NCBI GenBank assembly: GCA_903897805.1
Contig: CAIUCV010000021.1
Coordinates: forward strand, 1 to 61,435
Source: Candidatus Yanofskyibacteriota bacterium
GTDB taxonomy: Bacteria; Patescibacteriota; Minisyncoccia; 2-02-FULL-40-12; IGHO2-01-FULL-4-A
Direction of reading: 5' to 3'
Length of the DNA stretch: 61,435 bases
Shown: piece by piece, positions 33,576 through 36,137 of the stretch
How the letters are laid out: every line of letters starts with the position of its first letter
Position numbering within the stretch: the stretch's first letter is position 1
The notes under the pieces: model-generated
What the model saw: only the letters and a program-made list of their open reading frames with translations
The model's database searches: none
What the model was told of the DNA's origin: nothing
Translations under genes and position numbers: made by a program

Positions 33576-34253
33576 ATGTTTGACAAGTTTACTTTCAGTA
33601 GTGCCGGTGAAGTTCAAGAGGTAGAATTCGCTCTAGCTAGGGCGTGCTATACCCACCCCGAGGTCAAAGAGTTGTCGAAGGGCGATCTCTTGGGCCAGGT
33701 CCGCCAAATCATCCTTGGCCAAGCCGTAATCAAGCCGGTGGCCGAGGATGCCACTCGGGAGATCACTCTCAACGAAACCACGATCGTGGTGAACCTTGGT
33801 GCCGCACCTAAGCTACCATTCAATGGAGCAGAGGTCGAGAGCCACGCCGGCGAGGGTTGGGCTATCGTCGAGAAGAGTCCCGACGGATTGTATGTGAACG
33901 GCCGCAAGGTCGTATTGCATCTGTCCCGTCGGCAGCAGAATGGCAAGTCGCTCAAGGGCTACGAGCTTCGTGAAGAGCTGACGGGTAAGCCCGTACTCAA
34001 CGCGAATCTGCTCGACACGCTCGCAGACAACTCCCACCTCATACCCGAGGACTGGAAGAAGGACGAGCAGGGTAACACCCGCTACATCTTCTTCTGGGGC
34101 ACCATTTACCGCAGCTCGCGCGGCCACCTCTGTGTCCGCTATCTGTATTTCCACGTTGGGATGTGGGATCGGTACTACGACTGGCTTGACTACGACTGGC
34201 ACGGCAGCCGCCCCGCGGCTCTGCTCGCAAGTAGTAGGTCCTTGGACTTTTGA
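33576..34253 (+). CDS. DGR variable (target) protein, C-type-lectin-like C-terminus
   Basis: SD AAAGGAG then ATG at 33576; C-terminus RYIFFWGTIYRSSRGHLCVRYLYFHVGMWDRYYDWLDYDWHGSRPAALLAS carries the VR. Confidence 0.92.
   Translation: MFDKFTFSSAGEVQEVEFALARACYTHPEVKELSKGDLLGQVRQIILGQAVIKPVAEDATREITLNETTIVVNLGAAPKLPFNGAEVESHAGEGWAIVEKSPDGLYVNGRKVVLHLSRRQQNGKSLKGYELREELTGKPVLNANLLDTLADNSHLIPEDWKKDEQGNTRYIFFWGTIYRSSRGHLCVRYLYFHVGMWDRYYDWLDYDWHGSRPAALLASSRSLDF
34107..34230 (+). repeat. DGR variable repeat (VR)
   Basis: 124 bp aligning to TR 34623-34746 at constant offset 516 without gaps; 16 mismatches, all at TR adenines. Confidence 0.97.
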
Positions 34254-34258
34254 ACCTT

Positions 34259-34274
34259 GGGTCCTCTTGGACCC
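34259..34274 (+). other. Hairpin downstream of VR (possible retrohoming hairpin/cruciform)
   Basis: GGGTCC TCTT GGACCC, 28 nt after the VR 3' end, within a GGTCCTTGGA-type repeat. Confidence 0.6.
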
Positions 34275-34338
34275 TTGGAACTTGGTCCTTGGAGCCGGCA
34301 ATTTTGCCGAAACGCTTTCCAGATATGCGTTCAACTGG

Positions 34339-34622: not shown

Positions 34623-34746
34623 AACCGCAACTCGAACGGCAACCTCTATGTCCGCTATCTGTATTTCAACGATGGGATGTGGAATCGGAACTACAACTGG
34701 CTTGACAACGACTGGAACGGCAACAACCCCGCGGCTCTGCTCGCAA
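34623..34746 (+). repeat. DGR template repeat (TR)
   Basis: Adenine-rich, AAY-enriched copy; translated in VP frame NRNSNGNLYVRYLYFNDGMWNRNYNWLDNDWNGNNPAALLAT. Confidence 0.97.
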
Positions 34747-34752
34747 CTTACT

Positions 34753-35112
34753 TCATTTCTCTCCCTTATTGGGAGAGTTTTGTTTTTGTAGCTGGCCATA
34801 CCAGCCACCGAGCATCCTGCCAATCTCGTCTATTTTTACGGATAGAGCTATATATTTCTTATTGTCCAAAGACTTGGTTTCCCAGAGTATCATCAAGAAT
34901 ATTTTTAATGTATCAACTTTTCTTATTGCTAGGCGGACATACGGTAGCTTTTCTTCACGCACCAAGAAACTAGCGGTTGCCAGTGCTTCTATGATTTCAA
35001 CGAAGAGAGCATCAATTCTGACGCCAAGCGAGTGCCTATGTGTTTTGGGTATAATTTGATAATATTCATACCAAAGCAAATAAGCACTTTTTACTTTCTG
35101 AAGCAGAGGCAA
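34753..35112 (-). CDS. avd: DGR accessory variability determinant (Avd)-like four-helix protein
   Basis: PLLQKVKSAYLLWYEYYQIIPKTHRHSLGVRIDALFVEIIEAL...VDTLKIFLMILWETKSLDNKKYIALSVKIDEIGRMLGGW; TTG start as annotated. Confidence 0.88.
   Translation of the reverse strand: MPLLQKVKSAYLLWYEYYQIIPKTHRHSLGVRIDALFVEIIEALATASFLVREEKLPYVRLAIRKVDTLKIFLMILWETKSLDNKKYIALSVKIDEIGRMLGGWYGQLQKQNSPNKGEK
34759..34787 (+). terminator. Probable TR-RNA terminator (inside antisense avd 3' end)
   Basis: CTCTCCC TTATT GGGAGAG TTTTGTTTTTG, 12 nt after the TR end. Confidence 0.75.
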
Positions 35113-35117
35113 GAGCT

Positions 35118-35129
35118 GGGGGGGGGGGG
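35118..35129 (+). repeat. Poly(G)12 homopolymer between avd and RT
   Basis: agct + 12 G + ctta. Confidence 0.9.
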
Positions 35130-35147
35130 CTTAGAAGAGGTATTTTT

Positions 35148-36137
35148 ATGAAAATCCAATTGGCTCATAATTATGAGTATATCATTTCTCTTGAAAATCT
35201 CCTTAATGCATGGAAGGAGTTTATTAAAGATAAAAAATTAAGGAAAGATGTGCAAATTTTTGAACTGGATCTGATGGGCAATATCATTTCGCTCCACAAC
35301 GATCTTGCCGCCAAAATATATAAGCATTCACCGTATCAGCCATTCAATATCTCAGATCCCAAGCCAAGAAAAATACACAAAGCTAGCGTCAGGGATCGGC
35401 TATTGCACCACGCTATATATCGGGCACTCTATCCATTTTTTGACAGAACTTTTATATCCGATTCTTATTCTTGCAGACTAAACAAAGGGACGCACAAAGC
35501 CATAAATAGGTTCTGTAATTTTGCATATAAGGTATCACAAAATCATAAGAAAACTGTGTGGGTTCTCAAGTGCGATATTAAAAAGTTTTTTGCTTCAATT
35601 GACCAAGATATTCTAGCCGAAATCATTAGAGATTATATACCCGACCCAGATATTGTCTGGCTTATCTCTCGAATCATCAGGAGCTTTTACTCAACGAATA
35701 TTGGTGTCGGTTTGCCCTTGGGAAATCTAACCTCACAGCTTCTGGTTAATATCTATATGACTAGGTTTGACCAATTTGTGAAGCATACACTAAAGGCAAA
35801 ATACTATATCCGCTATGCTGACGACTTTGTTATTTTATCTCCAGACAAAAAATGGCCTGAGGAAACAATTCCAAAAATCAGAGATTTTTTATGGAATAAA
35901 CTTCATCTTCAGCTACATCCAGATAAAGTATCAATTCAAACACTAACATCTGGTGTCGATTTTCTCGGTTGGGTGCACTTTCCAAACTACAGGGTTTTGA
36001 GGACCACAACCAAAAAGAGAATGTTTAGGAATATAAAAAATAAACAAGGGAATATAAATACGGTGCAATCTTATCTTGGGCTTATTAGTCATGGAAACTC
36101 AAGAAGATTAGAAGCAAGATTAGGGATTACCGATTGA
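35148..36137 (+). CDS. DGR-type reverse transcriptase
   Basis: VGLPLGNLTSQLLVNIYMTRFDQFVKHTLKAKYYIRYADDFVIL (xxDD catalytic box, GNLTSQ motif); SD AGAAGAGG. Confidence 0.96.
   Translation: MKIQLAHNYEYIISLENLLNAWKEFIKDKKLRKDVQIFELDLMGNIISLHNDLAAKIYKHSPYQPFNISDPKPRKIHKASVRDRLLHHAIYRALYPFFDRTFISDSYSCRLNKGTHKAINRFCNFAYKVSQNHKKTVWVLKCDIKKFFASIDQDILAEIIRDYIPDPDIVWLISRIIRSFYSTNIGVGLPLGNLTSQLLVNIYMTRFDQFVKHTLKAKYYIRYADDFVILSPDKKWPEETIPKIRDFLWNKLHLQLHPDKVSIQTLTSGVDFLGWVHFPNYRVLRTTTKKRMFRNIKNKQGNINTVQSYLGLISHGNSRRLEARLGITD

Follow-up and report, generated by a model that had tools for sequence, protein, structure and literature searches.

We describe here a candidate genetic switch in a diversity-generating retroelement (DGR) on contig CAIUCV010000021.1 of a Candidatus Yanofskyibacteriota bacterium, a member of the Patescibacteria; the whole stretch analysed, 61,435 nucleotides, is referred to as the window. 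The setting is a complete DGR, with a target gene carrying a variable repeat (VR), a template repeat (TR), the accessory gene avd on the minus strand and a reverse transcriptase (RT) gene on the plus strand, and a run of 12 cytosines lies near the 5' end of avd. We propose, with a probability that we put at roughly 0.88, that avd is under translational phase variation and that this tract, through replication slippage, forms the slippery element of the switch. Slippage would alter how many Cs separate the avd ATG (35168) from the remainder of the gene, with one length in three giving full-length Avd (ON) and the other two giving a short stub (OFF). In the OFF state a cell would be expected to leave its target undiversified, because avd nonsense mutations abolish the activity of the reconstituted BPP-1 DGR, in which Avd is essential and such mutations drop activity to about 1e-9 (PMC12875486). 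The switch would gate target diversification stochastically and heritably, such that a minority of cells diversify and most keep a fixed variant. What the comparison of sequences brings out is the position of the repeat, its unit sizes, its behaviour with respect to frame, its phylum-wide conservation, purifying selection on avd, and a lack of detectable MutS and MutL.

The tract, G12 on the plus strand, is the sole G/C run of at least 9 in the window and, according to the pattern search by which homopolymers were located, the longest G/C run of the 621,693-base genome (~0.62 Mb), all others found being exactly 8 long. From 35168 the minus strand reads MSQLDFHKNTSSK, then C(n), then AGC TCT TGC, and the distance from the ATG to the tract is 39 nt. 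The original prediction, made from the letters of the window, had given the exact coordinates of the G run, and had calculated that this ATG joins avd only if n = 1 mod 3 (10 or 13 Cs); recomputation for n = 8-15 agrees, with n = 12 yielding a 25-codon stub and n = 10 and 13 yielding an Avd of 137 and 138 codons, respectively. The avd copy in the window, at n = 12, would most likely be OFF, with the proviso that the exact C count in any one metagenome-assembled genome (MAG), including the 12 here, may be off by one. Elsewhere in the same genome, G8 runs stand a few bases before ATG codons (L004:1501-1508 and L005:1501-1508), and these are possible spacing-type contingency tracts or extended Shine-Dalgarno (SD) sequences.

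How widespread is such a repeat? Homologues were found by similarity to the window Avd in GTDB contigs, in the family, phylum and class, and in viral contigs, with one genome sampled per species, and loci were retained if a divergent RT lay nearby and exact duplicates were removed, which left 207 distinct loci; the query being this Avd, the share with a repeat may differ in more distant DGRs. In the 115 nt leading up to avd codon 6, which we call the slot, 170 of the 207 loci carry a simple sequence repeat, versus 4.5% of 5,185 background tiles of 115 nt under the same detection rule. C-runs make up 148 of these repeats, ranging from 6 to 15 in length with a mode of 9-10 and always with C on the avd strand, and the other 22 are built of CT/TC/CA/GA (17 loci), CAAC/CAAT/ACGA/CCAA (4) or AGGAC (1). 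Units of 3 or 6 bases are absent from all 170 slot repeats. In 630 kb of flanks, a C/G run of at least 8 occurs elsewhere only once, next to the RT of locus L013. Comparing tract length in relatives, a check that the original prediction had suggested, thus reveals a repeat in most slots and all three reading frames, which strongly supports its view of the tract as a phase-variable contingency locus and extends that view to most Patescibacteria DGRs of this type. We consider it likely that, Patescibacteria-wide, an avd contingency locus gates DGR hypermutation, that is, slippage switching targeted mutagenesis so that only a transient ON minority diversifies, and that the repeat has arisen repeatedly from different units at one site.

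Loci that lack the repeat are found mostly among the more distant relatives, and there is no repeat in the slots of 8 related viral avd loci, BalMu-1 and BPP-1. A search of viral contigs for near-identical alleles returned a single avd relative, carrying (GA)19 in its slot; this locus, L124, lies on a contig listed as 'viral' in IMG/VR, which either comes from a virus of Patescibacteria or is host sequence wrongly classified. Two other loci have unusual runs. L204 carries a perfect palindrome in its slot, C9 running directly into G9, some 20-40 nt before avd codon 6. The C13 run of L013 (L013:2990-3003) is bounded by the RT on one side and by the 3' end of an apparent triosephosphate isomerase gene on the other, in flanks that resemble an avd/RT junction, and is possibly the remnant of an older junction; the avd slot of L013 itself is repeat-less.

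An ATG is open into the repeat at 169 of 170 loci, and at every testable locus (167/167) an open ATG lies at most 60 nt from the tract, compared with a shuffled mean of 88.9 and maximum of 101 and with 64% in neighbouring RT-antisense segments. The ATG was picked by a mechanical rule, and 24 loci have open ATGs in more than one phase; in the single-phase loci, it falls in the avd frame 36 times and in the two other frames 60 and 49 times. An in-frame ATG of any kind is present at 50 of the 170 repeat loci versus all 34 repeat-less, N-free loci (Fisher p = 6e-16), and its presence throughout this natural control indicates the ATG as the start of avd. A repeat whose unit is not divisible by three stands between start and body, and the frame depends on the length of that repeat, as in a translational phase-variable gene.

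Could Avd instead start downstream of the tract, at the TTG at 35112 in the window, making tract length irrelevant? An in-frame TTG does lie just past the window tract, an Avd profile match begins there, and it had indeed been claimed that at n = 12 avd must start at a TTG. That claim was mistaken; the codon at this position varies freely among relatives (TTG 57, TTA 30, CTG 11, ATA 9, CTT 9, and others), which is the behaviour of a leucine-type codon rather than of a conserved start, and on this variation we reject the TTG. Additionally, at 74 of the 170 loci the stretch from tract to codon 6 contains no ATG, GTG or TTG in frame, and every repeat-less locus has an in-frame ATG upstream, leaving a downstream start very improbable.

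Downstream of the slot, the avd body is intact at 203 of the 207 loci, and the median ratio of nonsynonymous to synonymous substitution rates (dN/dS) is 0.08 for OFF-OFF pairs, with ON and repeat-less loci similar. A permanently OFF gene would decay; OFF avd is instead, judging by these substitutions, under purifying selection. Intact, selected OFF alleles are also what one would expect if the C-run provoked programmed slippage during transcription, or frameshifting of the ribosome, and some Avd were made at every length, such that no cell was ever OFF, and homopolymers can induce slippage of this kind. Both wrong frames are common, however, and no single shift corrects both; moreover, (CAAC)n, (CAAT)n, (ACGA)n, (AGGAC)n and (CT)n occupy the same slot. 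Polymerases and ribosomes slip poorly on such short tandem repeats, which are classic substrates for replication slippage. Programmed slippage is, in our judgement, unlikely.

Under the phase-variation reading, repeat length is expected to be labile. The RT tree shows conservation of repeat type (21 changes versus 51 shuffled) and no signal in C-run length (78 versus 79.5 shuffled); for example, a 2-nt difference at the edge of the tract puts L210 OFF and L211 ON, their avd genes being 97.6% identical, so length changes faster than the flanks do. In one clade, the repeat-less, in-frame loci L192 and L197 stand beside members with (CAAT)7, (CAAC)11 and (ACGA)9. With positive controls in place, neither MutS nor MutL was found in this 90%-complete genome, and of 285 genomes in the class, MutS was found in only 9; with these mismatch-repair genes missing, slippage should go largely unrepaired.

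Is the tract perhaps a product of sequencing, of dark-cycle poly-G or of gap filling? The window comes from a single MAG, homopolymers are error-prone, and the slot holds a strong excess of N-runs (7 of 258 slots, at L079, L125, L126, L229, L245, L253 and L259, versus 11 elsewhere in 929 kb; p = 2e-7). Length mixtures within a sample would cause such an enrichment, and difficulty of assembly alone could too; in other words, N-runs are equally expected from length heterogeneity. The repeat recurs at the same position in well over 100 genomes of unrelated projects, some of them with di-, tetra- or pentanucleotide units, which refutes artefact as a general cause. Error of this sort, offered at the outset as the main alternative, is almost certainly not the explanation.

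The tract also lies within the leader of the RT gene, about 19 nt from the RT ATG, a distance that is the median among relatives too, and the intergenic region is very short. One might therefore ask whether the tract tunes transcription or translation of RT (or avd) through the spacing of a divergent promoter or leader, with frame incidental, like the rheostat of fetA in Neisseria, a known transcriptional poly-C switch (PMC5320596). Spacing makes no demand for an open ATG at 167/167 loci, for units other than multiples of 3 or for repeat-less loci to be in frame, and the SD-like AGAAGAGG between tract and RT start (ATG 35148) fits a leader and not a -35/-10 spacer. As the sole explanation it is improbable, and a spacing effect on RT may exist alongside the frame switch. 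An extended -10-like pattern, represented in the window by TGATATACT, occurs upstream of 41 of 169 avd ATGs; it overlaps conserved RT codons and is weak for that reason, giving no more than a hint of a leaderless avd promoter.

Several points weigh against the proposed avd switch. Our reading is built on comparison across genomes, reversible length variation within a population being its prediction, and the essentiality of Avd is a point established for BPP-1 and extrapolated here to Patescibacteria. Because RT codons that are themselves conserved overlap the avd ATG, sequence conservation alone proves little, and dS is near saturation in most pairs, making dN/dS rough. The ON share, 36 of 155, is below one third (p = 0.008) and is lower still, 10 of 71, at C10 or longer, which speaks against purely neutral states, and ON/OFF has weak phylogenetic signal (26 changes versus 31.3 shuffled). 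At C6, ON accounts for 4 of 4 loci. The ON minority in assemblies suggests that most cells of a population are OFF. Slippage within populations, loss of Avd in OFF cells and an effect on DGR activity, drawn by analogy from BPP-1, are what we would expect of bacteria that carry these loci.

The features of the DGR around the tract are collected in Table 1. Avd is identified by Pfam bAvd PF22296 (42.9 bits; cut-off 40) and PHROG 3206 Avd, and reaches 66.7 bits against NCBIfam NF033474, under the cut-off of 80; a sequence search of the PDB with Avd gave no match. NCBIfam group II, retron and DRT models match the RT below their cut-offs only, and the target protein has no match in Pfam, NCBIfam or PHROG. 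Within the TR core, 12 of 26 adenines differ from VR and none of 78 other bases does; differences confined to adenines are, as read from the repeats, the signature of past DGR activity, indicating that the element has been active. The hairpin just after VR stands at the DGR target hairpin position, and the fold of 34228-34310 has -16.2 kcal/mol (z = -3.6). The possibility of a dead element is ruled out by the intact RT, the intact avd of nearly all loci and the low dN/dS. The avd gene, on the strand opposite to TR, ends ~7 nt beyond it (34624-35112), and the RNA region that follows TR, which in BPP-1 forms the structured spacer, would be antisense to the avd messenger RNA.

Table 1. Coordinates of the DGR and of the proposed switch in the window.
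Feature	Coordinates	Strand	Remarks
C12 tract (G12 on + strand)	35118..35129	-	Putative slippery repeat, 5' coding part of avd
avd ATG start codon	35166..35168	-	Overlaps first RT codons on opposite strand; open into tract
avd 5' coding segment preceding tract, MSQLDFHKNTSSK	35130..35168	-	From sequence
avd body (accessory variability determinant)	34753..35117	-	Out of frame with its own ATG at C12
TGATATACT, possible extended -10 element (tentative)	35176..35184	-	7 nt before avd ATG
DGR reverse transcriptase, 329 aa	35148..36137	+	Divergent from avd; RVT_1 81 bits; PHROG 1423 RT 362 bits
Template repeat (TR)	34624..34746 (approximate ends)	+	Core 34641-34744
Variable repeat (VR)	34108..34230 (approximate ends)	+	3' end of target gene; ungapped TR match, offset 516
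DGR target protein gene carrying VR	33576..34253	+	ATG start inferred
Hairpin, DGR target hairpin position	34237..34295	+	Just downstream of VR

How cells restrain DGR mutagenesis is largely an open question, and the avd tract offers a concrete, sequence-visible switch. It would cover a large share of Patescibacteria DGRs and, if the proposal is true, evolvability itself would be bet-hedged. This makes a prediction for existing metagenomes; tract length should be mixed within populations, and the in-frame fraction should track VR diversity. A more practical matter is that avd, as predicted by gene callers in Patescibacteria genomes, may be truncated or given the wrong start. Roux 2021 described a Patescibacteria-restricted DGR clade, clade 2, of lower-than-average activity (PMC8144416), which would be in line with an avd switch without being proof of it, and which the switch may help to explain. 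We found no earlier report of a phase-variable or repeat-controlled DGR in the open-access literature, the only literature covered, so this absence is no proof; phase-variable control of directed mutation appears unreported.

Among known systems, the translational phase-variable genes of Neisseria are among the closest: pilC with poly-G, opa with CTTCT and autA with AAGC (PMC5320596). As in these genes, the avd repeat is near the 5' coding end, no unit length is a multiple of 3, a truncated product results in two frames out of three and homologues differ in length. The Neisseria-type cases mostly concern host-associated bacteria and their surface structures or modification enzymes, whereas here the gene is a hypermutation accessory factor of mostly uncultured Patescibacteria and switching is deduced from cross-genome comparison. 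The element itself belongs with Avd-type DGRs; like BPP-1-type DGRs and clade 2 of Roux 2021 (PMC8144416), it has RT, Avd, adenine-only TR/VR differences and a hairpin after VR, but unlike in BPP-1-type elements, avd is divergent from RT, is antisense to the post-TR region and opens with a slippery repeat. Slipped-strand mispairing has also been proposed for a hypervariable repeat-array gene of a Gracilibacterium, likewise a Candidate Phyla Radiation (CPR) genome; those arrays, however, encode tripeptide motifs within a protein, with no frame switch and no DGR mentioned (PMC6851277). Phasevarions, i.e. phase-variable DNA methyltransferases, resemble the avd switch in that a random switch on a controller gene alters a whole downstream programme, but their output is methylation-dependent gene expression, and the output here would be targeted protein mutagenesis. 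The proposed avd switch would combine two known kinds of system.
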